Source: Trifolium pratense (lineage: Eukaryota; Streptophyta; Magnoliopsida; Fabales; Fabaceae). From it: DNA of 64,000 bases. The notes beneath the pieces are model-generated. The model worked only from the letters and a program-made list of their open reading frames with translations, ran no database searches and was not told where the DNA came from. The position numbers were made by a program, and so were the translations under genes. Shown piece by piece: positions 4,159 to 63,020 of the stretch (the first letter of the stretch is position 1; every line of letters starts with the position of its first letter). The stretch is taken from positions 6,361,322 through 6,425,321 of the forward strand of contig NC_060062.1 in NCBI RefSeq assembly GCF_020283565.1. Direction: 5' to 3'.

Positions 4159-5101
4159 GATACACATTATGGTTTAATTCACTGCTTTGAGTTTCTGGCA
4201 ATTGATGGAAAGAACAAAATGTGGCAAAACTGTACCAACCAACTTGGTTTGCCTTTGGAGCCTATTAAAAATTGCTTTAATAGAGGAAATGGAACAGAGG
4301 TTATAATTTTGTTCATTTCTTTTTTTCTTTCTTTTTTTTGGTTACTAATTTTGTTCATTTCTTTTTCTTTTTCTTTTTTTTGACGTTAATTTTGTTCATT
4401 TCTTTGAATGCATTGTTAATTAAAATGACATGGCATAGAAAATGGAAAAAGTTTTTCTTTGGTAGCAGATAGACAAAATGATAAACCATTATAAACCCAC
4501 ACATATAAGTGGAGGAGTTCAGGTTTGAACTTCGGATGGTGTCCGATTTTTTCAGTTGAGTTGAAAAAAGTAATTTTTTTCTTCATGTAGTCTAAATTCA
4601 CCTCTCGAGGTGAATAAATGAGAATATCAGGGTTCGAACTCCGATCATGCATATTTCTTGTAATGTCTCTGTCAACTGAGCTAAAGTCACATATAGACAT
4701 GGAAAAAGTATTCTAATTCTATGAGTTTTTTTTAGTTAAATGCTTGTTTAAATGTCCTTAACATTAATTCTTACTTTGGTATAAATTAACATTAAATTTG
4801 AATTTGTTTGCAGCTTGGACAAAAATATATTGATGAAATAGCAAAACTAGACCCACCTCATTCATTTGTGCCATGGGTGGTGGTGAATAATCAACCTATT
4901 GGAAAAGTTTGTCTTTTCTCCTTCTTGTTTTTCTCTCTCACACACACACATTGGTCTAATTTCCAAATTATTAACAAAATACTCATCATGTTTGTGTTAA
5001 TTCAGGACTATGAAAATTTTACACAATATGTTTGCAAGGCTTATAAAGGTGATGCTATTCCAGCAGCTTGCAATGTTCATTTGAATGCAAGTGAGAAATA
5101 A
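4159..5101 (+). pseudogene. GILT-like thiol reductase, 3' exons only, cut by LTR element
   Basis: GILT (gamma-interferon-inducible lysosomal thiol reductase) proteins reduce disulfides in vacuolar or secretory compartments. Three in-frame exons are visible: 4159-4299, 4814-4906 and 5006-5101, with phase-0 GT..AG introns, matching exons 3, 4 and 5 of the intact paralogue at 5723-7584. They encode the Cys-rich middle (HCFEFLAIDGK, then WQNCTNQL) and the C-terminal YVCKAYKGDAIPAACN. The signal peptide, the CxxC/CxxS active site and the HGPDEC exon are absent here. The LTR at 3223-4003 occupies the place of the missing intron and exons, so the 5' half is either lost or lies more than 4 kb upstream beyond the element. 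The visible exons have no stop or frameshift, so disruption was probably recent. I call it an interrupted gene; a transcript spanning the element would change that. Confidence 0.72.
4500..4695 (-). repeat. tRNA-derived SINE-like unit
   Basis: Read on the minus strand, there is an A-box-like TTTAGCTCAGTTGACAGAG near 4690-4670 and, about 45 nt further on, a B-box-like GGAGTTCGAACCC near 4635-4623. This spacing is that of an internal RNA polymerase III promoter. The unit lies in the intron between the first two visible exons of the interrupted GILT gene. Its 3' end was not located. Confidence 0.45.
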
Positions 5102-5722
5102 ATTTAACTATTCATATTGTTGGTGAAGAAAAATGTTACATGCATACGTGTGCACTTGATCACGTCAAGCTCTTGGAAGGATACACACATGACACATTGA
5201 CCATGCATGCTGAATATATTACATATCTATCTACTATGATATAGTCATATAGTATTAAAATAAGAGAGATCGAGAGATAAAGTACCTATGTCATGTGTAC
5301 TTGAGTACTTGACCAAAAAAATGTACTTATGTGTACTTGACAAAAAAAAAAAAAAGTACCTATGTGTAAAATTTCTATTGGAATATATAATTATAAAGTC
5401 GATTTTGTAAGGATGAGTTAGACCTAAAACTCAATTCTAAGAGAGTTAATGACAATTTTTTTGTTAATCATTTGGTTCTTAGATGAAGATGTGTCAGTAA
5501 TCTAAGATTTGATCAGAAGGTAAATAAAATCTAATAAAAATTCATTCTACTTGACTCAGTATTCACTCGAACGGTTGTCCTTTGGTGGAGTTCGTTGTGA
5601 AAGAGATTGTATATCATATATTTATATATACATAAGATCGAATGCAACAATACTATATATGATAAAACCCTTTAGAGTCAATAAAGAGACACAAACATAT
5701 CAAAAAGTATATGCACATAGAA
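5102..5722. other. Spacer between the two GILT copies
   Basis: AT-rich DNA with a 14-base A run near 5341 and short imperfect repeats of ATGTGTACTTGA (5296-5360). It must hold the promoter of the complete GILT gene; TATATATACATAAG near 5619-5634 is a candidate core element. No other gene was seen. Confidence 0.4.
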
Positions 5723-26245: not shown

Positions 26246-28751
26246 TCAGGGAGTGTTCTCTTTATCACCACCAAAAGAAGACGCGACTTGGCTTCTTTCG
26301 TCACTTGGGTGTAGACTAGCTTCAGCATTGGTTACGACTGGGGATGAGTCCATCAGACTAGCTACTAAAGCCACATTTAGATCTTCATCGTCGTCGTCTG
26401 AATACATTTCATCTTCCTCGTCTGAAAGAAACTGACTCGAATGTTGTTGCGTTTCAACAACTGCTTCTTGTGGAGCCTGCTGTACTGAGTTGCAGGAGTT
26501 GTTTATTCTCTCTTCTGAAAGAAACTGATTGGAATGTTGTTCACTTTCAACAACTCCTTGTGGAGTCTGCTGTTCTGGATTGAAGGATTTGTTTATTCTC
26601 TCAGCATCTTCAGGTGAAAGCCACTTCCCAAAACCAGTGGAATCTTCAGATGAAGAGATGGGAAACACTGTTGGAAAATTTCCTCTCACCACGAATATGC
26701 TCTGCCCAGGGCCTTTCCAATAGTTGAGGTAGACTGCAAGGCAAGACTTGGAAAGGCGCTCTGGAGCTGCACAGTAACTGTTAAAGTTATACCACTCTCC
26801 ATTCACTTTGCGGACAGAATACCAGTGATCCTGCGGATGAAAAATGTAGGCATTTTCCAGGTCAGGATCCATCTTCGCCGGCTCGGCGACCGGAGAATTA
26901 AGTGGAATCACTTGTAGGTCCCACACTTCCAAAGCCTTTTGTATAACCTACAGGAAAAACTTTGCACAATTAAGTAACTCAATTGCAACGGATTGAAGTC
27001 CTAAAATGCCTGCCCAAAAAAAATTGGATGTGTGCAACAAACATCTCCTCAAACAGAAACCACCATTTTACTTTAAATTAATTATGTTTTTCCCAGAATC
27101 TGAATCGTACATACTGGACACCAAAGGTGTGGCAACATGCAAAAATATAATCCTAAATGTTAATTTCAATAACAGATGAAAACATACAAAACAGTTATAG
27201 AACTTGGATTTTGATAATGAAATTCAGAGACTGAATAATGCTATATAATATAGTATATCAATTGTGCTGAAAAGAAGATTAGAATCCATATATTTATTGC
27301 ATATAATAGTTATACCGTATTATATCTTGTAAACAGAGAAAGAAATATTATGTAATTATTCTACACACACGGTTTCAAAATACTATGTCTCTTATGTTCC
27401 CACTATAAAAGTTCAAAAAAGAGGGGGGAAATGTCAAATAAAACTAGAAATGTGAGTCAAGTGCTACTCCCGAGATCTCCATACATGATTGCTCAAGATA
27501 TATCCTATATATAAAATTCAATTAGTCAGTTTGAATTAATGCATGCATGCGTACTAATGTTTAATAGTATCGGTTAAAAAACACGCTTGAAAACAAAAGA
27601 GATTCGTATCTCACATGAGTAACTAACTAGTACCATCACTAAGTACAAAGACCATAAAAGCCATCTATGACGTATACGGCACTACAATTCAACTCCAGCC
27701 AAACCAAATCAACTTTCACAGTAACGCCACAATGAGACTTGTTTGTATTATTAGCCATGCACATACACACGAGAATCAAAACAAAATTCCACCACAAAAA
27801 TAAAACTTACGAACTGTTTCCATTTAATTTAAATCCAATCCACACAAAATTTTCAAAATCAACAAAGATAATGCCATAAGTTACACCAGAATTTAAGTTG
27901 TTTTCATAACTCACCTTTAATTTCACCAACACAAAAGAAAGCCAACACAGATATAACTACAGACAGGCTTTTTAAATAATCATTGTTTTCAAATAGTGGC
28001 TATAGCATTATAGTATATCAAATTTAAACAAATCACAATTATTTTGCAATACACCGTGTAGTACTAAGTTCTGTCAAATACTATAGTGGTGCTTGAGCAC
28101 AAATTTGAACAAATTGCTATTTTCCGCAATCTGCAATTGACAACACACGTAAATTTATCACAGTAAATTACGAAAAGTTTAAGTAAGCTAAATCTTGGGG
28201 ACTCGTCAGGGTTCTTACAAACCCTAAAGCTTAGAAATTGTAACCAATAACAAGGTCGTTACATCGGCAGTTTTAAACTCAATAAATTTTGTACGCGAGT
28301 TAAATCCTTACCAATTAGACTAAGTTTATTTAGCACACTAGACACATAATTTAATCTAATTACACCCATTTATGAGCATTTGTTATCCATGATCAGAAAG
28401 CTAAATACATCACAATAATCAAAAGAACATAAACATGATAAAATTAATTCGGAATAATTGATTATGAATAAGAATTATGAAGTAACAAGTTAAGATTGGG
28501 ATTAGTAAAGAAATGAAATTAACCTGGATGCTGAAATTGCCACCAAGGGATACATTATGCGAGACGTAACCACCGGCAGCGGGGAGCATCATCATTTGCC
28601 ATTCCCTTTGATCAAGATCAGAAGCATGTGCAGCCAACTCGACTTCAGAGAAATATGGACCCTGAAGCAAAGTATTAATGCAATGAAGAGCGCAGAGATT
28701 GGATACTTGTCTCTCATGATACAGCATACCTCCATTGTTTGCTCCTTCCAT
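26246..28751 (-). CDS. Ataxin-3-like Josephin deubiquitinase, copy A
   Basis: Josephin-domain proteins of the ataxin-3 (MJD) type are cysteine proteases that remove ubiquitin. Inferred exons are 28751-28524 and 26947-26246, separated by a 1.58-kb phase-0 intron; the product is 309 residues. The catalytic cysteine sits in NLCALHCINTLLQG (C20), with Q15 upstream in HERQVSN. The catalytic His and Asn are in exon 2: QDHWYSVRKVNGEWYNFNS. A ubiquitin-interacting motif DEDLNVALVASLMDS follows an acidic patch. The tail has a short duplication (HSNQFLSEERIN / HSSQFLSDEED, each preceded by QQ[TA]PQ) not seen in copy B. Exon 2 opens VIQKALEVWDLQ. It is inverted with respect to copy B at 32883-37594, and the introns and 3' flanks of the two are also related. 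Confidence 0.92.
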
Positions 28752-29146
28752 CGCCGCTTCGATTCGATTTCAATTGAACTGAATTGAATCGATTTCACAG
28801 AATCGAATACTAACTAAACCCTAATTATGATATTTATAATATTAACATTTTCCTTTTATGTTATTCTTATTATTTTCTCTTTTCTGTCGTTTTTTCTTTT
28901 GCTTTTTGGATTGGAAGCTTTAGACATAAATGGAAGAAAATTTGTATAACAAATCGGGCTCTTAATTAACAGTTAAATTAATTAATTTACCAAGAAAAAA
29001 CCTGGTAATATCGAGTTCGGTCGATAAGTAAAGTCGGAATAAGAATGTCAGGATAGTCTCACAAATGCTTACACTAGTAGATAAACTTAAATAGTCTAAT
29101 CCAAACCGACCCTAAGTCTGTTTTGACCAAATAATGCTCAAAAAAT
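28752..29146. promoter_or_regulatory. Upstream region of Josephin gene A
   Basis: It lies between the Josephin A start codon and the remains of the second reticulon copy and must carry the promoter. The first 40 bp are related to the sequence upstream of copy B (AATTGAATTGAAATCGAA-type leader). No TATA box was chosen with confidence. Confidence 0.35.
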
Positions 29147-32290: not shown

Positions 32291-32882
32291 AAATTACATT
32301 ACTTCTAAGTCACTGAATTAATTTAATGGTGAGAGGTTTGAGTAATATGTAATAAGTCCTAAATTCGATCATAGTCCATGTAACAAAAAAAAATTACATT
32401 GCTTCTTCACAATCTCTCAATATTATTATCATCAGTGTTGTTGAAATCAAACAGAGTCTAAAACTACAATAAATAAATCTTTAATATTAATTCTGTTCTG
32501 AAAATTGACACGCGGCAAAACAACACGACACTAATTATCAAAAAAAAAATCACAAAATCGAAAGCCATAAAAAACAAAAAATGACTTAAAAGTTTTAAAA
32601 CCGACAATTTCGTGAAATAATTATAATTAAATTTAACAGTCAATTAAATACCCGATTTATTATACAAATTTTCTTCCATTTCCATTTTCGTCTCGTAACA
32701 CAAACAATACCCCAATCCATAAAGCAAAAGAAAAAACGACACAAAAGAGAAAAGAATAAGAACAACGAAGAACAAAACAAAACCGTTAATTAACTACTAT
32801 ATAATTATCAAAATTAGGGTTTACTTATTAGTATTCGATTCTGCAAAATCAATTGAATTGAATTGAAATCGAAACCGAAACG
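32291..32882. promoter_or_regulatory. Upstream region of Josephin gene B
   Basis: AT-rich DNA leading to the start of copy B. The last 60 bp (from TTAGGGTTTACTTATTAGTA) are related to the sequence upstream of copy A on the other strand. A weak SINE-like box (AATTCGATCATAG) lies near 32352. No gene was seen. Confidence 0.35.
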
Positions 32883-35800
32883 ATGATGGAAGGAGCAAGC
32901 AATGGAGGTATGTTATATCATGAGGTACAAGAATCGAAGCTTTGTGCTGTTCATTGCGTTAACACAGTTCTTCAAGGTCCATTTTTCTCTGAATTTGACT
33001 TAGCTGCACTCGCTTCCGATCTCGATAACAAAGAACGACAGATGATGATGCTTCCCGCTCACTCTTCCGCTTCCGGTGATTTATTCTCTCATAATGTTTC
33101 TCTTGATGGTGATTTCAGCATCCAGGTTTATTTCTCAATTATTCTTATTCATAATCGATTATTCTGAATTAATTTTTTATTATTTTGATGTATTTAGCTT
33201 TTTTTATCATGGGTAAGAAATGCTCATAAATGGGTGTAATTAGATTAAATTATGTGTCTAGTGAGTCAAAGATTAAATTTTTATGTTTAGTTCCACTTCT
33301 AGAGTGGCCAAAATTGATTATAGAGGTAAAGAAAAATGATTTTGACATGTTTGGTTTCTCTATAGTATAATTGATTTTGGCTCCAGAATTTATTCTATTT
33401 TGAGACTAGAAATTGTACTTCTGATTCTAAAATTGATTTTTTACAGTCAAATTTTTTGTTCAAGTAACTTTTACATGAATGTATCCAAGCATAGATCATT
33501 TTACCTTCAACTCAATTTTAGTCAGAATTAATTTACTCAAAATCATTTTTTTCTCACTGCATAACCAAACATACATAGTCTAATTGGTAAGGATTTAACT
33601 CATGTGTATACTATAAATTATATGAGTTCTAAACTGCCGATGTAATGACCTTTGTTGTTGGTGTATAATTTATAAGCTTCAGGGTTTGTAAGAACCTCGA
33701 CGAGTCCTTGGGATTTAGTTCACTTTGTAATTTACTGTGTTTTATTTACATGTTGTCAATTGTAGAAAATAGCAGTTGTTCCAATTAGTGCTCTAGCACC
33801 GCTATTATAGTTATTTGGTAGAACTTTGTACTAGATAGTGTATTGTATAACAATATCAATTTGTTTAAAGTTAATGCTATAGCCACTATTTGACAACAAT
33901 GATTATTTTAAAAGAATGTCTGTAGTTATATCTGTGTTGGCTTTCTTTTTTGTGTTGATGAAATTAAAGTTGAGTTATGAAAACAGCTTAAATTCATGGT
34001 ATAACTTGGTGTATTATCTTTGTTGATTTTGAAAATTTTGTGTTGTTTGTTTGGATTTAAATTAGATCGAAAGAGTTTGTAAGTTTTATTTTTGTTGAGG
34101 AATTTTGTTTTTTATTCTCTTGCTGTGCATGTGCATGGCTAATACAAACAAGTTTTATTATGGCGTTACTGTGAAAGTTGTTTTGGTTTGCCTGGAGTTG
34201 AATTGTAACGTTGTATACACCATAGGGTATCGCTGAGCAATAACAATTTGTTAAAATTATGCTACACTATAATGTTAACCGCTATTTGACAACCTTGATT
34301 ATTTAAAAAGAATGTCTTCAGTTATATATGTGGCCGTTTTCTTGTGTTGATGATGGTGAGTTATGAAAACAGCTTAAGTTAATCTTATAACTGAGTGCAT
34401 CATCTTTGTTGATTTTGAAAACTTTGTTTGGATTTAAATTAAATGGAAACAGTTTGTAAGTTTTATTTTGTTGAGGAAATTTGTTTTTGATTCTCTTGTT
34501 GTGTATGTGTATGGCACGCTAATAATACAAACAAGTCTCATTGTGACGTTAGTGTGAAAATTGTTTTGGTTTGTCTGGAGTTGAATTGTAACACCGTATA
34601 CGTCATAGATTGTTTTTATGAGCATTGTATTTAGTGAGGGTACTAGTTAGTTACCCATGAGAGATACAGATCTCTTTTGTTTTCACGCGTGTTTTGTAAC
34701 CGATACTATTAAGCAAATAGTACGCATGCATTAATTGAAACTGAATAATTGAATTTTATATATAGCATATATCTTGCGCAATGATGTATGGAGATTTTGG
34801 GAGTAGCACTTCATACACACTTCTACTAGTTATATTTGACACCCCCCTCCCCCATCTTGTTTTTTGGGCTTTTTTCAATTTTTGACTTGGGTATGTGCAT
34901 GGCTAATACTAACATGTTCTGGTTTGTCTGGAATTCTGTTATAATGTCAGATACATCACAAATGGTTGTTATAAGCTCTGTTTATTAAGCCATGCTTTGC
35001 AACGTCCCTATTAAACAAATAGTATACATCATACATGCATCATTTGTTAAGCTTTTAAAAAAAGTTAAAAAGTGGTTTATATTTTGTAAAGCAGAAGCTA
35101 TTAATCTTTTGGTTACTACTGTAAAATCATGTTTTGTTTTAATAGGTAGTTATAATTTTAGAAGCTACCTTAGTAACTTTGTATTATTACTGTATTTTGT
35201 TTTTATAAGTAGTTATTGATTTTTTAAATTTCAAATTCAAGTATTGTAAAAGCTTAATCAAACAGCTTAGAAACTTTAGAAAGCTGTTTTTCTAGATAAA
35301 ACATAAAAGTGACTTTTTCATGAAAAACTCAAACAAACGGGTTCTAAGTCATTGGCAATAACTGCTGCGAAAAAATTTAAGCAAAGAAGGAATGTGGACC
35401 AGTCTTTTAAAACTGCAGCATGATCCATATTTTTCTTTCCTGTGACTTCTCCCGTAGGTCATCTGTCTCAGATGCTTAGTATGTTTCTAGAGTTGCTTAA
35501 TCTCTAGGATTTGTGTAAAATCATCTAAGCCCTGACTAGTGCGTTGCTGCTCGTATGGGAAAACCTAATAATCAGAACATAGAAAAAATAGATTTTCCAA
35601 TATAACCATGCTTTCCTAATTTGAGTAAAATTTGGATAGCCTTGTATTTCCAAAATCCCAAAATATCAAACACCTGATAGCTTTATATAACTAGAAGTTT
35701 CCAATATGAAAACTTCTAGTACGCCCATTTTCGTATAGCTTTTGGATATTCAAAGTATCTAAATTACACTGTCTCCACAAGTGGCAATCACTATACAAGT

Positions 35801-37594
35801 ACCACTGTCTAGTACCTCTCAGACGAGTGAACCTTGAATGATATGCCAAAGGCCCAACACTCTTTCATTGTTGAAGACCCCTCCCACTATGTGGATGACC
35901 TTGGGTTGCTCAGTTATAGGGTTCCGATGGCATGTTATCACACATGGCCTCTATAGTGGTCAATGTCTATTTCCCTCTTTATCTCCACTGTGACCCCCAC
36001 ACGTATATTCTCTTTTTTGCCTCTACCTTGTTACCCATTGGATGATTTTGAAACATACTGTTATTTACTTATCTCTCTTTTATTCTTCTTTTGACTTTTT
36101 TGCTAGTTCCTTCATTGCTTGAAGAATTTTTTTTGTTCCCATCCTCTGACTCTGCAATTCTGATTTTGGCGTGTCAACTTTCTTGAGTGGTGTTAGTACC
36201 TACCCCTATTACAACTTGCCTTTCAGCCGATTCTACTCCCTTGCCCTCCTTGCATCATCCATTTCTTCTCATATATAAGTTGTACAATGTCCATCTAAAT
36301 CTCATAATGACTTATACTACTGCAACTTCAGTCCTGCCCACACCTCTTTGGTGACCTTCAAGGAAACCCTTTTAAGAGATATTCTTGCTCTACCACGTGT
36401 TGTGAGCAACATATATATTAGATTGTTCCTCTTTTTTTAGGCAATGAACAGGTAGAATAATTACATGATACTCTATCTCTATTTACAAGATATAATACAA
36501 TATAACTGTTCTATACAATAAATATATGGATGCTAATCTTATTTTCAACACAATTATATACTATTATATATCATTATTCAGTCTCTTGATTTCATTATCA
36601 AAGTCCAAGTTCTATAACTGTTTTGTATATTTTCATCTGTTATTGAAATTAACATTTAGGGTTGTATTTGTGCATGTTGCCACACCTTTGGTGCCGTGTA
36701 TGTACGAATCAGATTATGGGAAAAACATCTTAGTTTGAAGTAAACTAGTGGTTTCTGTTTGATGGAAATGTTTGTTGCATGCATCCAATAATTTTTTGGG
36801 CAGCCAATTTAGGACTTGGATCCATTGCAATTGAGTTACTTAATTGTGCAAAACTTTTCCTGTAGGTTTTACAAAAGGCTTTGGAAGTGTGGGACCTACA
36901 AGTCATTCCCCTTGATTCTCCAGTTGCCGAGCCTGCCCAGATTGACCCTGAGCTGGAAAATGCCTTCATTTGTCATCTGCAGGATCATTGGTTTTGTATC
37001 CGCAAAGTGAATGGAGAGTGGTATAACTTTGACAGTCTCTACGCAGCTCCACAGCACCTTTCCAAGTTTTACCTTGCAGCCTACCTTGACTCTTTGAAAG
37101 GCTTTGGGTGGAGCATATTCCTGGTGAGAGGAAATTTTCCAAAAGAGTTTCCCATCTCTTCAGCTGAGTCTTCCAATGGTTTCGGGCAGTGGCTTTCACC
37201 TGAAGATGCTGAGAGAATTACCAAATCTTGCAACTCAGTACAGCAGGCTCCACGAGAAAGAGTTGTTGATAGGCAACAACATTCAAATCAGTTTCTTTCA
37301 CATGAGGAAGCTGAAATGTTTTCAGACATGGAAGATGAGGATCTAAAGGCGGCTATAGCAGCTAGTCTGATGGATTCGGCCCCATCTGAAGCCAGTGCTC
37401 CTCAAAATGATGATAAGCAAAAGAGTATACAAGTGGAAAGCATTGAAACTAGTCTACCTCCCAGTGATGAAAGAAACAAACATGTAGACGCTACTGATGC
37501 TGGTTCTCTGAAGGATACAAACAACCAAGTCGCATCTTCTTTAGGTGGTGATAAATCTCAAAGTGAAAACCAGAATAAAGAGAAATCTCCCTGA
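32883..37594 (+). CDS. Ataxin-3-like Josephin deubiquitinase, copy B
   Basis: Paralogue of copy A on the opposite strand. Inferred exons are 32883-33125 and 36866-37594 with a 3.74-kb phase-0 intron; the product is 323 residues. The catalytic cysteine is C21 in KLCAVHCVNTVLQG; His and Asn are in DHWFCIRKVNGEWYNFDS. The motif asparagine is present, but the residue after NF is D where copy A has N. The ubiquitin-interacting motif is DEDLKAAIAASLMDS. The tail SIETSLPPSDERNKHVDATD is longer than in A. Two start codons lie in tandem (MMEGAS); the second corresponds to the start of A. The intron is over twice as long as in A, through an internal tandem duplication (33890-34610) and unexplained extra DNA (35340-36430). 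Fragments resembling both copies occur in the foldback at 49476-50325. Confidence 0.92.
33890..34610 (+). repeat. Tandem duplication inside the Josephin B intron
   Basis: Two diverged direct copies of about 330 bp lie at about 33890-34225 and 34290-34610. Shared landmarks include AAAAGAATGTCT, GTTATGAAAACAGCTTAA, ATCTTTGTTGATTTTGAAAA and TTTGGTTTG(C/T)CTGGAGTTGA, in the same order. The Josephin A intron has a single counterpart (about 27650-27990), so the duplication is specific to copy B. Confidence 0.75.
35340..36430. other. Unexplained C-richer block in the Josephin B intron
   Basis: Composition changes to C- and CT-richer DNA (for example CCCAACACTCTTTCATTGTT, and repeated CTCCCACT/CCTACCCC runs). 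It has no counterpart in the shorter intron of copy A. No long open frame, inverted repeat or A tail was recognised. It resembles transcribed or retroelement-derived non-coding DNA, but I cannot assign it. Confidence 0.35.
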
Positions 37595-37953
37595 GAGAAG
37601 ATTGTGGTTTAATTTGCATTTGATTTGTTTTTGCAATTGAGGACAATAATTTATACCCGTTTAGTTTGTTGAAACATACATCAGTGGCTTAAAGTCATTG
37701 TGTTGTGCAGTATACACATTCTCATATCAATTGCATGATTTATAAACTGTAAGGAAAACCCTTCAACATTTTTTCTGATTATGATATTTATCCAGTTTTG
37801 ACAATGATTTTTAAGACCCTTTATCATTCCTACCTGATCGTGATAGCTCTAGTTACATAGTTTGCGCAATTTTGTTGACAGTACCATTAAGTTGTTTGTG
37901 GCAACTTTTATCTGACAAAACTGATTTGTTAACTACTACTTAGTCCATATTAC

Positions 37954-48159: not shown

Positions 48160-48453
48160 GGGGAGGGATCAAATTACACCGGTGTAACATTTGAGTAATG
48201 TTACACCGTTCAATAACGCTTCAACAAATATAAATTTTACAAAATTCACCGTTGGATTGAACTTTTATATCATATAGATCATTCATGTTAAATTTTATAA
48301 AAATTTAAAATCGTTTGATATGTTATTGAGATTGAGCAAGCTTAACGATATTCAATAAAATCACATAAAGCGTTAAAATTTGTATTCGTTGAAACGTTAT
48401 TAAGCGGTGTAACATTACTCAAATATTACACCAGTGTAATTTGATCGTTCCCC
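48160..48453. mobile_element. 294-bp MITE with 9-bp target duplication
   Basis: The terminal inverted repeats span about 60 bp: left GGGGAGGGATCAAATTACAC, right read inwards GGGGAACGATCAAATTACAC, then GTGTAACATTTGAGTAATGT on both sides. TTATTATTT is duplicated at 48151-48159 and 48454-48462. There is no coding capacity. It is a well preserved foldback with Mutator-like duplication length. Confidence 0.88.
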
Positions 48454-49344
48454 TTATTATTTACTTGGACATAAATACTATGAAAATAATTATAAAAATG
48501 AATTGTGGTCAACATTATTTTCCTGCATTAAATTCATTCATATTACGATACATGTATTATATTCGGATTTAAGGCAATATACGGAATTAATAGTGTTTTT
48601 TTATTTGTTACCTTCCATAATGATGAGAAAATATCTTTTGAAAAATTTGACTTGATTTATGTGCAAATGTGTAATTATTACATATATACCTCAAAAAAAA
48701 TTACATGACATACTATATGTATAAATTAAAAATATATATATTCACTAAAAAAGGTATTATATCAAATATTGAATGGTTTTCAATATTTGAATGTTGACTT
48801 TTAGTCAAAAGAAATGTTTGAATGTTGACTTGATTTATTGATTAGTTTTTTTTAATTGTGTGAATTTACGTTGTTTACTAATTAGTAAAATTTTACTTAT
48901 TTTTTTATTAAGATTTTTTTTTAATTATCTTGAATTATACCAATATAAATATAACAATCGCCACAACTTGAAATTCATCCTCATATGTAAACATCAATTT
49001 CTCTAAAAATCAACCACTGTAGCACCAAAAATTTACCAATGAAATTTTCAGTTGAGTTTATTGAATCCAAATGATTCAATGAGACTAAATTTCTCCAAAC
49101 AAATATTTTTCAAAATATCATTATTGGTTCTCTTCCATCTAGTTTTCTTTTTCAGCTTCATTTTTTTTTTTGTTGTTTTTTTTTTTTGTGGTTTTTTTTT
49201 TTTAATATTTTCCAGCTTTCAAATGCATATGAGATTGCATTATGCAATATATAGTTGTTTATGTTTAGTGAACTCAAATTGAAATTTTTTGGGATTAGTT
49301 CAAGCATAACAGAGCACCCAACAAACTAAAATACATCTTCTATT
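48454..49344. other. AT-rich DNA, partly duplicated downstream
   Basis: The stretch from about 48950 (CGCCACAACTTGAAATTCAT) to 49230 resembles 52745-52950 (CACCACAACTTGAAATTCCT ... AGACTAAATTTCTCCAAACA). T runs at 49158-49204 give a spurious poly-Phe reading. No gene was seen. Confidence 0.45.
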
Positions 49345-49450
49345 GATTTGACTGTGTTTGTGTTTGCATCTCTTTGACTTTATTGTAAACTTTTGTGCTG
49401 GGGAGGCTGTTTGTGTTAATATATTCCATTTTGTCTTCTTCAAAAAAAAA
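49345..49450 (+). mobile_element. 106-bp retroposon tail with 14-bp target duplication
   Basis: The insert ends GTCTTCTTC plus an A run. ATACATCTTCTATT stands directly at 49331-49344 and 49451-49464. Poly(A) and a 14-bp duplication mark LINE-driven retroposition, probably of a severely 5'-truncated LINE. The body (TTTGTGCTGGGGAGGCTGTT) was not matched elsewhere in the window. Confidence 0.72.
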
Positions 49451-49475
49451 ATACATCTTCTATTTTCTTCTATAA

Positions 49476-50325
49476 CTTATACATGAACATTGAAAATCGT
49501 CATTTTTTAAGTATTAACCAAGCCTTTTTATACATATATTATAGCACAAGAATCAACCACCAACGGTAATAACTTAATACTTACATTATCCTCACCAGAG
49601 CTTCTGTGAGAGTCTGAATCTGAGCTACCATCATCCAATGATTCCAAAGTACCGCAACCAGTAGCATATTCATTTCCAGCTTCAAGTTTTTGAACACAAG
49701 GCAAACAAAAAATCATAACCAGAGTCCTCCCAGTGACGAAAGAGACAAACATGTGGAAGCTATTGAAGCTGGTTCAGAATGATAAAAAATAACCAAAGTG
49801 AAAATCATAGGAGAACCTCGCATCTTCTGGTCATTCCCCTTGATTCTCAAGTTGTCGGGCCGGCCCAGATTGACCCTGAGCTAGAAAATGCCTTCATTTG
49901 TCATCTTAAATGAAGACATTTTCTAGCTCAAGATCCATCTTGGCCGGCTCGGCAACCGGAGAATTAAGGGGAATGACCAGAAGATGCGACGTTGGTTCCC
50001 TTATGGTTTTTACTTTTGTTGTTTTATCATTCAGAAGATAACCGACTTCAATAGCTTCCACATGTTTGTTGTTTTCGTCATTGGGAGGACTCTAGTTATG
50101 ATTTTTTGTTTGCCTTGTATTCATAAACTTGAAGTTGAAAACGAACATGCTAGTACTAGTTGCGGTAGTTTGGAATCATTAGATGATGGTAGCTCAGATT
50201 TTGACTCTCATAGAAGCTCTGGTGAGGATAATGTAAGTATTATGTTATTGACTATTGTTGATGTTTGATTGTGTTGTAATATATGTACAAAACGATGATT
50301 TTCTATGTTCACGTAAAATTCAGTT
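49476..50325. repeat. Inverted-repeat locus with ataxin-3 gene fragments in both arms
   Basis: Two arms of about 420 bp face each other around an 8-bp loop (49900-49907). The outer half of each arm encodes, reading away from the centre, an open stretch containing CGTLESLDDGSSDSDSHRSS (left, minus strand) or its variant (right, plus strand), ended by a GTAAGT that looks like a captured splice donor. I do not recognise that segment. The inner half comes from Josephin exon 2: the 3' part (SDERDKHVEAIEAGSE) lies before the 5' part (QIDPELENAFICHL), that is, in scrambled order. The left arm agrees with Josephin copy B and the right arm with copy A at most sites where these differ. The inner 71 bp of the arms are about 86% identical. 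A transcript would fold into a long hairpin. Confidence 0.82.
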
Positions 50326-51038
50326 TGTTGGTACCTTGAGTGCTAATCTATTTTCCAAATTCAATACAAGTTTCCACAATCCCAATAACAATGGATTGAA
50401 GGATATATTTGAAGTGAAAATGCATGAGTCATCTCACCATGAATTAAAGACACCACTCGACAATGGCTTAATCTTGTGCAATCTCATCAAAGTTAAGATA
50501 TATTTTTTTGAAGAACAAAGTTAAGATATATGTTTTCATAAAAGTATCCATTTCTTTGACATATCTTTTACGGTACTAATATTTTAAGTTAACATTTTCT
50601 TTTATATTTTTTGAAGAAGTATTGCTAAAATTAAAATATTTTTTAAGAGGTGAAATCAATATAATCATGTGGGCAGCGGGTGTATAATATGAAGGTGTCT
50701 ATAAGGTGAACATCCTATGTAATTATAGGGGTTAAAATATGATTATTTATTTAATTTTTTAACTAAACGTAGTGGTTATTTTATAATAACTAAATCTTTT
50801 AATTATAGGAAAATAGAGAATTATATTATAACATGTAATTGTGCCTTTTGTGTATATATTATTTTCATAGAGGTAGAAATACTATTAAACTTAAACCTTA
50901 GTAGTTTAATTATACTTGAATAATTTTTACACCTAAATTCCTATAAAAAATTAATTAATTGTTGATGTTATTTTACTTGTTATGATTATATGGTTTGAAA
51001 GAAGACTATTAATTAATATTACATTAATGTGAAGGTAT
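50326..51038. other. AT-rich intergenic DNA
   Basis: It continues from the right foldback arm. AAGTTAAGATATAT is repeated at about 50490 and 50518. No gene or element boundary was found. An open stretch at 50255-50524 has no recognisable motif and partly overlaps the arm. Confidence 0.35.
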
Positions 51039-54596: not shown

Positions 54597-56500
54597 CTAG
54601 AACATCGACCCGTGCGGTGCACGGGTCCGGGTCTGATTAGTTGTAAGTTATATAATGATTAAATAAGATATGATAATTCCGATAATGTAAGGTGTATGAA
54701 AAAAGTTGAGTAACATTAAACGATAGTTCACCAATAATTTTGGATAAATATTCATACAAAGAAAATTATGTTATATTACGGAAGATTTTCTTATAGAGCC
54801 ACATTCAAATTCTTAGTCGTATCTTCACTGTTATCATCGATGATCAATATTTTTAATCCTTTTCAAGAAGTAACTCTTGAAATTGCAACATACAACTAAC
54901 CATGTGAAAACACTGGCGACGGAAGATATATCCCAACATGCTTTAAAGATTGTCCCTGACTCTTATTAATAATCATCGCAAAAGAAATCATTATAGGAAA
55001 CTGTCTCCGTTGAAATTTAAAAGGAATTCTCACGTCAGATGGTGTTAGAGAAAATCTAGGTATGAAAACCTGATTACCAATATTACTTCCTGAAATAATT
55101 TTTCCTTCAAGAGCACGTTTTCCCAATCTCGTAATAATAAGTCTTGTTCCATTGCATAATCCTAATTTTTTATTCAAATTCCTTAATAGCATAACTGGAA
55201 CTCCAACTTTAAGTCTCAACTTGAGATTTGAAACTTCCGACGTAGAAATCGTGTTCAAAAATTCGGGAGTATGAACATCATCCACTGTTTGACCGTCTAC
55301 ATTTTGTGTGAGTGGAGTATCAAACTCAAATATGTTTTTTCTTCACCAGGAATTAAATCCAACATATAATCATTTATTGTGTCGACTATTGAATTTTTAA
55401 GAGCTAGTATAGCTCTACTTTGGAAATACGTTATATCGTTTATGTTTTGTAAAAGTTGGGGATATGTGGTTTCAACGATAGAAGCAAGAGGATCACCTGA
55501 ATTTGGAACAATAAATCTGATGGAATGTCATGTTCTAAATCATCGTCGTTGTCATCTCCAATTTCTCCATCGCCAACACCCAAAACTCATTCAGAAAACA
55601 ATCTTCTTTGTTCAACGTCTGCACTCGAAGCACCACCGAGAAGCCTCATGTTTTTACTAAATGTTAAAACTTCACAAAAATTCCAAAGAACGGAAGAATT
55701 AATAGTAGCATGAACAACTTCTGACCTTGTACCTTTGGGTATTACTGGTAGAATTTGTTTAAAATCTCCACCAAAAACAACAATTTTTCCACCGAAGAGA
55801 ATGTGTTTATTTTTTTCATCAACAGACTTGAGAATATCTTTTAAAGTTCGATCAACAGCTTTGAAACAGTGTTTGTGCATCATTGGTGCTTCAACCCACT
55901 CATATAATGAGCTTTGCTTTTTGTATTAATAGCATCAAAGGGCTTTTAGGAACTATAGTACATGTTGAAAACTCGTCAACATTTAGAGGAATACAAAATC
56001 TTGAATGTGTTGTTCTACCGCCAGGTATAAGCAATGCAGCGATCCCACTTGAGGCAACTGTTAAAACTATCTCACCTTTTGAGCGTAATGCGGCTGACAT
56101 GGCCCTCCAGATAAATGTCTTCCCTGTACCGCCATAACCATAAATAAAAAACACACCAGGTTTGTTTTCGTTAACTCTTGTCATGATTGTGTCATATACT
56201 TTACGTTGCTCTGAAGTCATAGTTGACATCAATCTAACATGTTCCTCAGTTAATGATTGTCTGTTATAATTCAATTCGTCGTGTATTAAACTATTTTGTA
56301 TATCATGAACTAATGATGTGTCTGCTCTAGGCATTGGAGAATAATCTTTTAAACTCTTCCCACAACTACGTAACATCATCTCAATATCTGCTAGTACATA
56401 TTGTATCAATTGATCATCGGTTAATATTAAATTTGCAATGTTAAAATCAAAATAATGAATGTGATTAGTGACATGACTATGGTTGTGTTTGGTTGTATTG
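54597..56500 (-). mobile_element. Helitron remnant: PIF1-type helicase relic and 3' terminus
   Basis: On the minus strand the sequence reads through the C-terminal helicase domain of a Helitron Rep/helicase. Visible motifs are the Walker A (FIYGYGGTGKTFIWRAM), IVLTVASSGIAALLIPGGRT, Walker B-like VVFGGDFKQILPVIPKGTRS, LRLKVGVPVMLLRNLN, and MIINKSQGQSLKHVGIYLPS. Several frame breaks (near 55885, 55590 and 55290) and stops near 54890 show decay. The Rep nuclease half is missing. The 3' end is typical: a 9-bp perfect hairpin GACCCGTGC/GCACGGGTC (54607-54627), six bases, then CTAG (54597-54600) followed by T. The 5' terminus was not found, so the right edge is only where coding similarity fades. 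Confidence 0.85.
54607..54627 (-). terminator. Helitron 3' hairpin
   Basis: A perfect 9-bp stem with a 3-nt loop, ending six bases before the CTAG terminus on the minus strand. Such hairpins define Helitron 3' ends and are thought to stop rolling-circle replication. Confidence 0.75.
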
Positions 56501-57955
56501 CAAAAAAAAATTGATTTAGCATAATTGAATTTGATAATAACTTTCCAAATCACACGTGATAATAACTTTCTAAATCTCACATGATAATTATTCTCTAAAT
56601 TTATGATCCGGTAGAAAAAAAATCATTGATCAGGAAAGACATAAAAATATTTCGTGATGAATAATATAGTTAACAATAATTTTGATATGATATACTTTTA
56701 AAATTGATGGTGCTTATCAATTATTGCACATAATTTTAATCACAATTGTTATAATTGCCATAGTGGTTGGAAATATTGCCTTTCACTAAAGGGTTGCGGG
56801 TTCGAATCCTAGTCAAGACAAAATTGTATTATTTTTTAATAAAAATTGCAAGATAAAATGGAGGGAAAACAGGGAAATCAAATTAGGGTTTATGGTTTGC
56901 TTGTGTATACAAGCTTATAATATAAAAGATTTCACACTAGCAGCAAATAATTAGCCAATCTAACAACTATCTGCATTCTAACCATTTCCAAAGTTAACTT
57001 TGGTTTTCTAAACTTTCGGACCTGGATTCCAAGCAGTCAGTTAATCATGCAGTTATGCAGTCACTGCATTGCAGACCTTTGGATTAAATTTTAGTGGTCC
57101 AAATTTAAAGATGGATGGATGAGATTAACCCAAGAATCCATTTCCCAAACTTACTCCTCTATTCTTTCCGCATATTTCTTCCTTTTTTTTTCAAAACTCA
57201 CGCCTCCGCTCTCCACCAAACTTGAAAACAAAGCCTTAGGATATATGTTTGATTTACCAAAGATAAATATTGGACAAAACAACACATGAAAAAAAGTCTA
57301 AAATATGGAACAAATTTGATCTTGTACGATGTTTGGTGGACAAAAAATTATTTCAGTGCTTTGGACAATTGGTGCAAAAGATAAAAAAGTTTGGTATCTA
57401 TATTGCTGCAACTTCCAGAAATATTTTCAACAAAAGATGCAAGGGGTGGTCAAAATAAAGATCAGGATTTTTATATACCATTTACAAACATGAATACACT
57501 GCATATATTTGCTCATGACTGTATGAGTTTGGTAGAATCACTTATAGTAAGCACTTGTCTCTTCTTCCTTCAGCTTCAAACGTCAAGAGGTTCAATTGAA
57601 ACCATCAGCTTTACAACTATTTATCTGATTAAGAAAGAAGGAAACTTTCATTTAAGAGTTTAAGTGCAAATAAGAGTCAAATAATAAAACAACAAATCAC
57701 AACCAATCATTATACAATGATAAAGTCTGATAAGTGACATTAGTGTTAAGCTTACATTAAATGGATATCACGCAAAAAAGCATCATTATGTTTGGATGAG
57801 GTAATATTTTGAGGTAACATAATATTTTGAGATAATTCAAATTTTTTTATGTAAATTTTACGTAGAAAAAATTAAATTCTCTAAAAAAATGACAGTACTC
57901 AAAATATTTTTCATCCAAACACACTCTAAAAAATTTTCTTCAGAGATGTGGAAAC
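56501..57955. other. AT-rich intergenic DNA left of the copia element
   Basis: It contains a tRNA-like SINE head at 56750-56820 and, at 57240-57420, ATTGGACAAAACAACACATG with TTTGGTGGACAAAAAATTA-type words that look like an old repeat. Open stretches at 57270-57663 have no recognisable motif. Confidence 0.35.
56750..56820 (+). repeat. tRNA-like SINE head
   Basis: CCATAGTGGTTGGAAATATT is followed about 25 nt later by GTTGCGGGTTCGAATCC, a good B box. The expected acceptor and anticodon stems of a true tRNA do not form with a standard 7-base loop, so this is a tRNA-derived repeat and not a tRNA gene. Confidence 0.45.
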
Positions 57956-58384
57956 TGATGGAATATACTAATTCATCAGTTAGCTAAGTAGTTAGAAGTC
58001 AGTTTGTTTTGTTTGATCCTAGGTAGTTAGTTGGTTAGTCTAACTATCAAAAGTTGTTAGGAATTAGTTAGGCCAAAGGTAGTTACTTGTAGCTTAAGTA
58101 ACAAGTATAAATACACCTTAGTGTATCAATTGTAATAATAACTTTTTGGCCCCTATTGTGGATGAATAAAAATTCTATTCTTTCTCTTATCCTCTGATCA
58201 ATTCTTGTGATTCATTGTTAAGAAATTCTGTTCATCTTGTTCATATGCAGTCTTGCAGAAAATCTGCATTCTTGCTCATAGTCAAGCCTGCGTGCCTGAC
58301 TGAGCATTAGGCCTAAGCCTGCGCGCCTGTGTGCCTGTGCCTGTGACTTGTAAATCAAGCATTCTTGCTTCTGCTGCGCCAACA
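57956..58384 (+). repeat. 5' LTR of the young copia element
   Basis: Contains TATAAATA (58106-58113), a likely promoter core, and GAATAAAAATTC near 58164, a likely polyadenylation signal. The R/U5 part has repeated GCCTGCGYGCCTG words. Confidence 0.93.
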
Positions 58385-58386
58385 AT

Positions 58387-58400
58387 TGGCATCAAGAGCC
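58387..58400 (+). promoter_or_regulatory. Primer-binding site
   Basis: TGGCATCAAGAGCC, two bases after the 5' LTR, resembles the plant copia site complementary to the 3' end of initiator tRNA-Met (TGGTATCAGAGC) with a substitution and an inserted base. Confidence 0.6.
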
Positions 58401-58492
58401 TGGTTCAATCACAGGACAAGAGTGAATTGTGAAGGAATCAAGTGGAGAAACACAAAGTGAAGCTGTGTAGATTGATTTCTTGAAAATTCAAG

Positions 58493-61400
58493 ATGAACAC
58501 CCAAGGTTTTGGTACAAACATTCTGATTCTTGATGGAAAGAATTGGGATAGATGGAGTGCAGTGATGAAGTCCTTATTTGGAGCACAAGAGTGTCTTGAG
58601 GTAGTGGTGAATGGATACGATGAGTTGGGAGCAAACCCAACCAATGATCAGAGAAACACATACAAAGAAAACAAGAAAAAAGACTGCAAGGCTTTATTCT
58701 ATATCCAGCAGAATTGTGATGCACAGCATTTTGAAAAGATTTCAAAAGCAACTAAGTCCAAAGAAGCTTGGGATATACTCGAGGGTTACCATGATGGTGG
58801 AACCAAGGTCAAGAAAGTGAAATTGCAGGCCTTTAGGAGGCAATATGAGTCTATGGTGATGGAAGAGGATCAAAAAGTAAGTGACTTCTTCTCAAAACTT
58901 CTTGCACTTGTTCATCAAATGCAAAATTGTGGAGAGAATGTCACTGATGAAATGATAGTAGAGAAAGTGCTTAGATCCTTAACTCCAAACTTTGATAATG
59001 TGGTAATAGCTATAGAGTATGTGAAAGATACAGCTACAATGAAAATTGAAGAATTACAAAGTGCTTTGGAAGCACATGAGATTAAAGTTCTCAGTAGGGG
59101 TTCAGAAAAGAAAGAACAACAAGCCTTGCAAGCTCAAACCAACAAGAAAGATGATGGTAACAAGAATTTCAAAAAGAAAGGAAAGGGTAAAGCAAAGTGG
59201 CTCAAGAGTCAAAATTCAAAGTCAGATGACAAAGCTGAAACTTCAAAGGGAGGAGGCAATGTCAAAAGTCAAAACAAGAAGAGGAATTTTGATAAAAGCA
59301 AGGTAAAATGCTATAATTGTGAAAAATTAGGTCATTTTGCTGATGAATGCTGGTATAATAAAGATCAACAAGAAGCTAATGTAGCTGAAGACAATGATGC
59401 TAAGGCAGTGTTGGTAATGGCTACTACTGGTGATGAAACTCACAGAAATGAGGAATGGTTTCTTGATTCAGGCTGCTCAAACCACATGACACCTCATAGA
59501 GAATGGTTGACTAGTTTTGATGCAAGCAAGAAGACTAGCATTAAACTAGCTGACAGTAGTGAACTGGCAGCAGAAGGTACAGGGAAAATTGTGTTCAAAG
59601 GCAAAACAGGCAACACAGTCATCATAGAAGATGTGTTCTATGTCCCTAAGATGAATTGTAATCTCATTAGCATAGGACAATTGGTGCAGAAAGGTTTCTC
59701 AGTGACTATGGAGGACAATTCATTGAAGCTGTTTGATTCAAAAAGGAACTTAGTGTTGAAGTCTCCTCTGGCAAAGAATAGAACATACAGATGCAAGATT
59801 CCAAGTGATAGTGTGATGTGTTTGTCTTCAAATATAAGTGAACCAGTTGAAGAAATATGGCACAAAAGGTATGGACACTTGAACTATAGAAGTTTAAGAG
59901 ATTTAAATTCTAAAGAACTTGTATATGGCTTGCCTAAGATCAGTGTGAAGCATGCTATATGTGATATCTGCATAAAGAGCAAGCAAAGCAGATTACCTTT
60001 TGTGAAGGAGATGGCTAAGAGAGCAAATGCAGCCTTAGAAGTGATTCATTCAGACATTTGTGGTCCCTTTGAAGTGCAGTCATTGGGAGGAAGCAAATAC
60101 TTCATTACATTTGTAGATGAATTCACTAGAATGATGTGGATATTCACCATAAAGCTGAAGAGTGAAGCTTTATCAGTGTTCAAAAGTCTTAAAGTTTTAA
60201 TTGAGAAGGAGAGTGAGAAATCAATTAAAATTTTAAGAACTGATGGTGGAGGTGAATACACTTCAAAAAATTTTGAAGATTACTGCAAAAGTCAGGGTAT
60301 AACTCATGAGGTTACAGCTCCTTACACACCACAACACAATGGACTAGCAGAAAGAAGGAATAGAACATTGCTGAATATGGCTAGGAGCATGATTAAGCAG
60401 AAGTGCCTGCCACACAAGTTCTGGGGTGAAGCAGTCACTACTGCTGCTTACATCTTGAACAAGTGTCCTACCAAGAAGCTGAAATCAGTACCTGAAGAGG
60501 CTTGGTATGGAAGAAAACCAAGTGTGAAGCACCTCAGAGTGTTTGGTTCACTATGTTACAAGCATGTGCCAGATGCTAGAAGAACCAAACTTGAAGACAA
60601 AAGTGAAATAATGATACTTATAGGGTATCATCCAACTGGTGCTTACAAGCTATACAACCCTGTCACTCAGAAAGTTCATTTCAGTAGAGATGTAATTGTG
60701 AATGAAAATGAGAAGTGGAAATGGGAGGAAGAGCCAGTGTATAGCAGTGAATCACAGTCAACATTCATTTATCCAAATTCAAGTGATGAATCAGATGGAG
60801 GTGAAAACTATGATGAAGGTGAAACAGTCAATGATGTTGATCAAATTCAAGGTGCAGAGACCAACAGTGATATGAATCTCTCAAGTGATGATGATGACAG
60901 GATTCATATGGTTGGAAGAACTCAGAGAACAAAACGTGTACCTGCTAGATTGAAAGACTGTGAAGTAATTCAAGACAATGCAGTGAATAATGAGGGTGAC
61001 CTCATTCATTTTGCATTACTAGCTGATTCTGAACCAGTAAATTTCAAAGATGCTTTGAAAAGCAATGTGTGGAAGAAGGCTATGGAAGAGGAGCTTAAGT
61101 CAATTGAGAAAAATCAGACTTGGAAGCTAGTTGCCTTGCCAGACAAGAAAAAGAGAATTGATGTGAAATGGGTGTTCAAAGTGAAACTGAACCCTGATGG
61201 CACAATTTCAAAGCATAAAGCAAGGTTAGTGGCTAGAGGTTTCTTACAGAAACATGGTATTGACTACAATGAAGTGTTTGCACCAGTTGCTAGGATTGAA
61301 ACTGTGAGGTTGGTAGTAGCACTGGCTTGTAAAAATAGATGGAGAATGTACCATTTGGATGTCAAGTCAGCATTCTTAAATGGTCCATTGGATGAAGAAG

Positions 61401-62569
61401 TATATGTAGCTCAGCCACCAGGTTTTGAAATCAAAGGAAAAGAGGAAATGGTGTACAAACTGTACAAAGCTCTATATGGTTTAAAGCAGGCACCTAGAGC
61501 TTGGAATAAGAGGATTGATCAATTTCTTATTCAGATTGGATTTAAGAAGTGTACAGTGGAATTTGGTGTTTATGTTCAGAATCTCAACAATGAAGATTTG
61601 GTCATAATTTGCTTGTATGTAGATGATCTTCTCATAACTGGTAGTCAAAAACCAGAAATTGAGAAATTGAAAGGCAAGTTAAAGGCTGAATTTGAAATGA
61701 CTGATCTTGGAAAGCTATCATTCTTCCTTGGAATGGAGTTTATTGAAGTGCAAGGTGGAATAGTGATGCATCAACAGAAGTACATCAGTGAACTGCTTGA
61801 TAAGTTTGAAATGACTGAGTGCAAGCCAATTTCAAACCCTTCAGACACAAACTCTAAACTAGATGAATGCAAGGATGAAGAGGGAGTAGATCCTACACTA
61901 TTCAGACAAATGATTGGATCATTGAGGTACTTGTGTAATAGCAGGCCAGATATCTGCTATGCTGTAAGTGTAATCAGCAAATACATGAATAAGCCTAAGA
62001 AATCTCACATGAATGCAGCAAGGAGAATTTTTAGGTATGTAAAAGGTACAATGAGGTATGGATTGCTATTTCCTACTGGTTTGAAGAATGATTGTGAAAG
62101 CTTGAGTAGCTATTCTGATTCAGATTGGGGAGGAGATGCAACAGATAGAAGAAGCACATCTGGATATGTGATGCTATACAATGGTGCTGCAATTGCGTGG
62201 TGTACCAAGAAGCAGCCAGTGACTGCTCTATCAACATGTGAAGCTGAATATATTGCTGGCACTTTTGCTACTTGCCAAATGGTTTGGCTTGACTCTGTGC
62301 TAAGGGAACTAAAGTGTGAACTGCAGAAGCCTTTGAAGCTTATGATTGACAACAAGTCTGCAATCAATTTGGCAAAGAATCCAGTTTCACATGGAAGAAG
62401 CAAACACATTGAGACAAGGTTCCACTTCATAAGAGAGCAAGTTATGAATGGAAACATTGTATTAGTGTACTGTCCTACAGAGATTCAGCTTGCAGATGGT
62501 TTCACAAAATCTGTGAAACTTGACAGATTTGAGTTTCTAAGAGAGAAGTTAGGACTTGTTAGTGCTTAG
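58493..62569 (+). CDS. Copia gag-pol polyprotein, intact, TNT1-94-like
   Basis: A 1358-residue polyprotein. Gag occupies about residues 1-260 ([20 protein letters not shown]). The zinc knuckle [14 protein letters not shown] is C273-C286. The aspartic protease site is [14 protein letters not shown] with D325. A pre-integrase HHCC-like region ([13 protein letters not shown] ... CDICIKSKQ) precedes the integrase, whose catalytic residues are D521 (HSDICGPF), D584 (RTDGGGEY) and E620 (LAERRN), a D-D-35-E spacing. Reverse transcriptase has LYVDDLL with YVDD at 1042-1045. Ribonuclease H has [10 protein letters not shown] (about 1207-1216) and [11 protein letters not shown]. No stop or frameshift occurs. 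The start is the first ATG after the 5' LTR that opens the frame. Gag and pol are in one frame as usual for copia elements. All catalytic residues that I can place are present. Confidence 0.95.
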
Positions 62570-62591
62570 CCAACTTTGAATTAAGAGGGAG

Positions 62592-63020
62592 TGATGGAAT
62601 ATACTAATTCATCAGTTAGCTAAGTAGTTAGAAGTCAGTTTGTTTTGTTTGATCCTAGGTAGTTAGTTGGTTAGTCTAACTATCAAAAGTTGTTAGGAAT
62701 TAGTTAGGCCAAAGGTAGTTACTTGTAGCTTAAGTAACAAGTATAAATACACCTTAGTGTATCAATTGTAATAATAACTTTTTGGCCCCTATTGTGGATG
62801 AATAAAAATTCTATTCTTTCTCTTATCCTCTGATCAATTCTTGTGATTCATTGTTAAGAAATTCTGTTCATCTTGTTCATATGCAGTCTTGCAGAAAATC
62901 TGCATTCTTGCTCATAGTCAAGCCTGCGTGCCTGACTGAGCATTAGGCCTAAGCCTGCGCGCCTGTGTGCCTGTGCCTGTGACTTGTAAATCAAGCATTC
63001 TTGCTTCTGCTGCGCCAACA
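62592..63020 (+). repeat. 3' LTR of the young copia element
   Basis: Same length and, as far as can be read by eye, the same sequence as the 5' LTR. It follows the purine tract ending at 62591. Confidence 0.93.

Follow-up and report, generated by a model that had tools for sequence, protein, structure and literature searches.

A chimeric inverted repeat of nucleolin-like and Josephin gene fragments, locally duplicated in Trifolium pratense

RESULTS

Genes and features of the locus

The window analysed here is the whole 64,000-nt stretch of Trifolium pratense DNA, which lies on contig C4 of the genome that was searched (413.6 Mb, 90 contigs). It harbours two Josephin genes and a compact inverted repeat, referred to as hairpin 1, the components of which are as follows (positions are those of the window unless a contig is named).

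26246..28751, minus strand: Josephin copy A; exon 1 28751-28521, exon 2 down to 26246; frames open, diverged
32883..37594, plus strand: Josephin copy B; exon 1 32883-33128, exon 2 36866-37594; frames open
48454..50878, plus strand: duplicated block, repeated 22.3 kb downstream, outside the window (~C4:6432200-6434462), where it carries hairpin 2
49448..49726, minus strand (antisense on plus): nucleolin-like fragment of the left arm; 86% identity to positions 4750-5033 of stretch L011 (contig C7) and 83% to 4836-5125 of stretch L012 (contig C1)
49526..49899, plus strand: left arm of hairpin 1, with a weaker, gapped extension to ~49476
49726..49796, plus strand (sense): Josephin 3′ (C-terminal coding) piece of the left arm; 82% to 37457-37528; reads PPSDERDKHVEAIEAGS
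49830..49906, plus strand (sense): Josephin exon-2 5′ piece, B-like; 93.5% to 36902-36978; last 7 bases inside the loop
49900..49907, no strand: loop of hairpin 1, 8 nt between the arms
49908..49977, minus strand (antisense on plus): Josephin exon-2 5′ piece, A/B mosaic; 87% to both copies
49908..50292, minus strand: right arm of hairpin 1, with a weaker extension to ~50325
50015..50097, minus strand: Josephin 3′ piece of the right arm; 76% to 37528-37447
50088..50291, plus strand (sense): nucleolin-like fragment of the right arm; 83% to L011 and 80% to L012

The two exons of Josephin copy B encode exactly the sequence of a protein listed as the ataxin-3 homolog of Trifolium pratense, and copy A, with its open frames, shares 54% identity with B in exon 2. 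A Pfam search of the genome returned these two copies, of two exons each, and one more Josephin gene at C4:29.50 Mb. Copies A and B together form a large inverted pair, spanning 26246-28984 and 32624-37953.

The arms of hairpin 1 align by blastn as 49526-49899 against 50292-49908, with 83.3% identity including gaps (390 columns, E 9e-115) and 86.8-87.6% over aligned ungapped columns; the ungapped segments designated I1, I2, I3 and I5 are 87-88% complementary. Beyond these compact arms a weaker similarity, interrupted by indels, runs outward to ~49476 and ~50325, and the arms of about 420 bp with an 8-bp loop that had been described in an earlier note on this DNA are thus borne out, provided that gaps are allowed. 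The background of such structures was assessed by blastn for arms of at least 60 bp with spacers of up to 300 bp, using as control 100 kb from ten other stretches of the genome, eight chosen by position and two holding the nucleolin-like genes. The control contains 17 inverted-repeat rows, of which 12 have no separate spacer and several overlap, and the window together with its downstream sequence (83 kb) contains 10. Arms of at least 300 bp are absent from the 100-kb control, in which the longest measures 290 bp at 71% identity, and occur twice in the 83 kb, as hairpins 1 and 2; the hairpin is therefore unusual in size, within this small sample.

Several other repeats and insertions lie nearby. 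In the left flank (49330-49464), an insertion of ~105 bp (49345-49449) with an A-rich 3′ end sits between 15-bp direct repeats AATACATCTTCTATT; it is retroposon-like, is missing from hairpin 2, and resembles three places in L012 over part of its length (49393-49448; 78-80% similarity). A self-complementary, MITE-like stretch of 294 bp (48160-48453; 71%) adjoins the duplicated block on the left and is absent from the second copy of the block. Further to the right, a frame at 55900-56580, in which a PIF1-helicase domain is established for the window copy, is presumably Helitron-like, and an inverted copy of a block that overlaps its end (54631-56080) is found to the left of hairpin 2 (~C4:6430701-6432151) at 93-94% identity. 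A Ty1/copia-like element occupies 57956-63020, with one long open frame (58493-62569) and 429-bp LTRs; as these LTRs are 100% identical, its insertion was very recent, and the sequence on either side of it is continuous in the downstream duplicate.

Gene fragments within the arms

The earlier note had presented the hairpin as a product of Josephin fragments, and this is correct for the inner arms, where exon-2 sequence lies with its 3′ piece ahead of its 5′ piece and the right arm mirrors that order. As a description of the whole it is incomplete: approximately half of each arm is nucleolin-like (51-53% of the compact arms). The left-arm fragment of this kind comprises an exon of 105 nt, with a GTAAGT donor following its end, together with parts of both flanking introns, and the homology resumes outward at 49306-49344, past the small insertion. 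The source genes lie at ~C7:20010.7-20011.0 kb (86%) and ~C1:32434.3-32434.6 kb (83%). In the nucleolin-like gene, acidic sequence is found upstream of the 105-nt exon and its GTAAGT donor, and RRM exons are found downstream, with RRM_1 recognised in the C7 copy at E values of 9e-9 and 3e-8. Three of 20 protein relatives of one RRM exon are named nucleolin (Arachis stenosperma, Vicia villosa and Aristolochia californica), the rest of the 20 bearing no specific name. At L012:4000-4740 the C1 gene contains a charged repeat (QEDVITKKQKRDEVVEVVVKQENEEEINPD and variants) eight times in tandem, and the C7 gene has one copy of it. When a 1-kb nucleolin-like query was compared with the genome, the matches listed, which represent lower bounds, included the two source genes and the hairpins, the others being internal repeats of the C1 gene and a 45-bp match ~0.7 kb further on.

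With regard to the Josephin 5′ piece, copy assignment was based on 12 sites within 70 bp that are diagnostic of A versus B. The earlier note had assigned the left arm to copy B and the right arm to copy A; the former assignment stands, with B at 11 sites and A at 1 in hairpin 1, and the latter holds only in part, the right arm being an even mosaic of 6 B and 6 A sites. The corresponding counts for hairpin 2 are 11 B, 0 A and 1 other (left arm), and 7 B and 5 A (right arm). The position of the 5′ piece reads LDSPVAEPAQ in all seven of the legume proteins that were read, out of 120 listed, and LNSPVAEPAK in Josephin copy A and in the right arms of hairpins 1 and 2; the M that follows it is common to copy A and the right arm of hairpin 1. 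Because two or three apparently derived changes are common to both, a tie between right arm and copy A is hinted at, and it is suggestive, though only that, of a right arm derived from, or converted with, the Josephin A lineage.

Further copies on the same contig

Hairpin 1 is one of three related structures. Hairpin 2, at C4:6433099-6433946, is 96% identical over the whole query and 98.0% over ungapped columns. Hairpin 3 lies 2 kb past it, at ~C4:6435966-6436533, with arms of ~200 bp that are 77.5% self-inverted around a core consisting of an inner 47-nt pair and an 8-nt loop; it combines nucleolin-like sequence with the Josephin 3′ piece and lacks the 5′ piece. All of the hairpins found fall within ~26 kb of C4 and, among the matches listed, those in the rest of the genome are confined to the source genes and to short, partial hits. 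For each flank of hairpin 1 the genome has a second long copy, next to hairpin 2, and a single short match that is partial. The structure thus consists of an inverted repeat drawn from two source gene families and duplicated locally.

Every arm of the three hairpins, six in all, contains the junction of nucleolin-like sequence with the Josephin 3′ piece, and in hairpins 1 and 2 both this junction and that between the Josephin 3′ and 5′ pieces are common to the two arms. Because both arms have the same junctions, the fusion of the gene fragments is most likely older than the inversion.

Predicted folding of the transcript

Transcription of hairpin 1 had been expected to give a long RNA duplex, and the predictions support this. 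The plus strand folds at -532.3 kcal/mol, compared with a mean of -197.7 (sd 8.9) for shuffled sequences (n=20), giving a z of -37.7, and it contains five uninterrupted helices of at least 21 bp, the longest of 40 bp; the minus strand contains six, the longest of 42 bp (G:U allowed in both). In hairpins 1 and 2, 92-93% of the aligned arm columns pair on either strand, and there are 5-6 unbroken helices of at least 21 bp; in hairpin 3 the corresponding values are 86-87% and 1-2. As the arms pair at 92-93% and helices of this length persist, Dicer-type processing would be possible. The window contains no match to an RNA family (Rfam) at the gathering score, and a search of a plasmid collection gave no match, as expected for plant DNA.

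Predicted targets of small RNAs

Antisense 21-mers were compared with the spliced Josephin coding sequence and with the 105-nt nucleolin-like exons; windows reaching the loop were excluded from stem counts, and stem-only counts were used for hairpins 1 and 2, those of hairpin 3 being left out. A plus-strand transcript of hairpin 1 would supply eight perfect antisense 21-mers against the C7 nucleolin-like exon, from a 28-nt exact run (49624-49651), with a best match of 1 mismatch to the C1 exon (4 windows). Its best matches to Josephin have 2 mismatches for copy B and 1 for copy A (8 windows). A minus-strand transcript would yield three perfect 21-mers against Josephin B (exact run 49884-49906), all of which extend into the loop, and consequently no perfect Josephin B 21-mer would arise from the duplex itself. 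Within the stem, the same strand provides 26 windows with 1 mismatch to Josephin B, comes no closer than 3 mismatches to Josephin A, and reaches 1 mismatch with each of the nucleolin-like exons (6 and 1 windows). Neither strand offers a perfect antisense 21-mer to Josephin A. Small RNAs against both Josephin genes, as the earlier note had envisaged, are thus doubtful: copy A falls away, and copy B has three perfect 21-mers, from the minus transcript only and all reaching the loop. Predictions for hairpin 2 resemble those for hairpin 1, and the plus transcript of hairpin 3 has three perfect windows to the C7 exon and none to Josephin.

An earlier 21-mer count, in which 250-bp nucleolin-like regions including intron had been used and the loop had not been separated, was discarded in favour of this exon-only recount. 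The plus-strand count against the C7 gene thereby changed from 11 to 8, the perfect matches to the C1 gene disappeared, and the predicted case for targeting of Josephin B was slightly weakened. Overall, stem windows of hairpin 1 reach the level of 0-2 mismatches to the candidate target genes: on the plus strand C7 0, C1 1, Josephin B 2 and Josephin A 1, and on the minus strand Josephin B 1, with 3 for Josephin A.

Selection, drift and the history of the arms

Pairing on a particular strand shows no sign of having been preferentially retained. Differences between the left and right arms of hairpin 1 give G:U and A:C oppositions on the plus strand in similar numbers (19 versus 16, p 0.74), with 15 versus 15 in hairpin 2 and 13 versus 15 in hairpin 3. 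A comparison of hairpins 1 and 2 gives 30 differing arm columns, of which 16 with gaps were set aside and 14 are substituted; compensatory change was found in none of these 14, a small sample with little power. Eight of the substituted columns switch pairing on or off, four swap G:U and Watson–Crick pairs, and two stay mismatched. The pattern fits drift, at the modest power that these counts afford.

In the nucleolin part, the two hairpins are 98.7% identical from left arm to left arm and 98.8% from right to right, but left and right arms share only 91-92%, which argues that the arms are not being homogenised. Differences polarised since the source gene number 17 in the right arm versus 5 in the left. 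Trees of the arms place the left and right arms of hairpin 1 as sisters with 56% support in IQ-TREE, and FastTree joins the right arms to one arm of hairpin 3 with a support of 0.14; as sister support is weak, the left and right arms may have had separate histories.

A transition excess was considered as a possible trace of cytosine methylation; the ratio appeared high in comparison with the flanks of the hairpin and with a single block, but not with seven control blocks pooled, and speaks neither for nor against methylation. The transition/transversion counts are 12:6 for the hairpin, higher than the 12:15 of its flanks together but similar to the 60:26 of the nearby helicase-overlapping block, and comparison with the seven pooled blocks gives p = 0.47 for hairpins 1/2, 0.21 for the arms of hairpin 1 and 0.053 for those of hairpin 3.

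DISCUSSION

Origin and likely role of the locus

We consider it somewhat more likely than not that the locus is a decaying chimeric inverted repeat of gene fragments and at most an incidental source of siRNAs. A nucleolin-like piece, composed of an exon with intron parts and reversed in orientation, is fused to the 3′ piece of Josephin exon 2 and then to the 5′ piece, and the fused unit is present as an inverted duplicate around an 8-nt loop, with fusion preceding inversion, as we infer. The surrounding block has been duplicated locally, with a third, related hairpin nearby that has no Josephin 5′ piece, and the arms have presumably drifted since, free of detectable selection for pairing. Low-level read-through might then supply RNA that Dicer-like enzymes cut into mixed siRNAs of 21-24 nt, acting mainly on the hairpins themselves through DNA methylation; incidental targets could be the nucleolin-like mRNA, for a plus transcript, or, less well, the Josephin B mRNA, for a minus transcript. 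On this sequence-based reading the locus would be no more than a candidate precursor of a small-RNA gene. Against decay stand the retention of the full structure in two of the three hairpins, and the little power of a pairing test that comprises 14 columns.

A rival view, that the palindrome is inert, never transcribed and a mere trace of local rearrangement, is a serious but clearly less probable one. Inverted repeats are common here, at the frequencies given above for the 100-kb control (17 rows) and the 83 kb (10 rows), and no RNA family is matched in the window at the gathering score, both of which agree with it; the want of any arm of at least 300 bp in the control, however, sets hairpin 1 apart from that background. 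We think it unlikely, in turn, that this is a working trans-silencing hairpin-RNA locus comparable to GmIRCHS, from which siRNAs in some tissue lower the nucleolin-like and/or Josephin B mRNA. The predicted matches would permit it: a plus transcript offers eight windows perfectly antisense to the C7 exon and comes within 1 mismatch of the C1 exon, and the stem of a minus transcript offers 26 windows with 1 mismatch to Josephin B. Precedents are soybean CHS clusters acting at 82% identity (PMC3804491) and hairpin transgenes with mismatched arms, which silence well, though with an antisense arm perfect to the target (PMC9263138). On the other side, all three perfect Josephin B 21-mers overlap the loop, no pairing constraint is seen, and a protein search for a trace of a transcript, using a 113-aa frame on the right arm that is present in both long hairpins, matched nothing (2 candidates, none of which scored). 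Rather improbable is an extended form of this idea, in which three loci beside one source gene hold a dual-target silencing hairpin and the transcribed strand picks the better target, the plus strand favouring the nucleolin-like gene through perfect 21-mers and the minus strand Josephin B, with 1 mismatch in the stem.

The fusing of pieces of unrelated genes is typical of Pack-MULE, Helitron and foldback-type elements, and one of these, or a MITE, could have captured the two gene fragments. The PIF1-helicase frame at 55900-56580, and the recurrence of the block over its end ~0.9 kb to the left of hairpin 2, are in keeping with such an element. We nevertheless regard capture as very unlikely: no dispersed copies are seen among the matches listed, the hairpins are confined to ~26 kb of C4, and the arms end outward in nucleolin-like intron rather than in a recognised terminal repeat. 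The ends of the three hairpins differ in alignment. Palindromes are hard to assemble, and an artefact of assembly was therefore weighed as well; it is scarcely credible, given the 13% of aligned columns at which the two arms disagree, the indels peculiar to each, and the presence of the same structure at two separate loci with 96% identity (98% over ungapped columns).

The locus may represent an intermediate in the birth of small-RNA genes. Because a single genome contains both relatives of the source genes and three hairpins that have decayed to different extents, the steps of that process are open to testing. Expression would make the locus an instance of a single hairpin with two unrelated targets; a silent locus would exemplify how such structures arise and decay without use. 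Literature on T. pratense ataxin-3, on small-RNA hairpins of T. pratense (titles) and on plant siRNA inverted repeats of Josephin sequence was searched, and the locus was not found therein.

Comparison with known systems

A young plant MIRNA formed by inverted duplication is expected to show likeness between arm and founder far beyond one 21-nt site (model, PMC10004981), and this is seen in clover; in that model there is one founder gene, as opposed to two here, and the clover locus has no Rfam match and no defined miRNA/miRNA* pair. Mu killer of maize is likewise a rearranged, partial inverted duplication of a gene, and its silencing and non-silencing individuals differ in the orientation of the transcript (PMC3440606). 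It is, however, derived from a transposon and acts on that transposon, with silencing demonstrated in crosses.

Transgenes whose hairpin arms carry mismatches or G:U pairs at even intervals silence well, though the antisense arm there was perfect to the target (PMC9263138). At the soybean I locus, CHS clusters act on CHS7/8 despite 82% identity and no common run of more than 20 nt, probably via siRNAs with 1-2 mismatches (PMC3804491), and the match levels of the clover hairpins could therefore suffice, if siRNAs are made. The CHS1-3-4 arrangement of that locus resembles the present one in being an inverted repeat set against relatives with many substitutions, acting in soybean and predicted in clover (PMC3804491). 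It differs in containing whole genes, in perfect clusters of 10.91 kb, with siRNAs that have been sequenced.

The closest precedent is GmIRCHS of soybean, a candidate for the I allele, in which a 1,087-bp pseudoCHS inverted repeat has a spacing of 78 bp, a piece of a DnaJ gene (GmJ1) supplies the promoter, and both dsRNA and a seed-coat phenotype are reported (PMC13051633). GmIRCHS repeats one gene, unlike the clover hairpin, in which both arms hold pieces of two genes and are 13% diverged. Both are nonetheless legume loci in which a closely spaced inverted repeat of gene fragments, chimeric with a piece of an unrelated gene, lies near a member of the target family.
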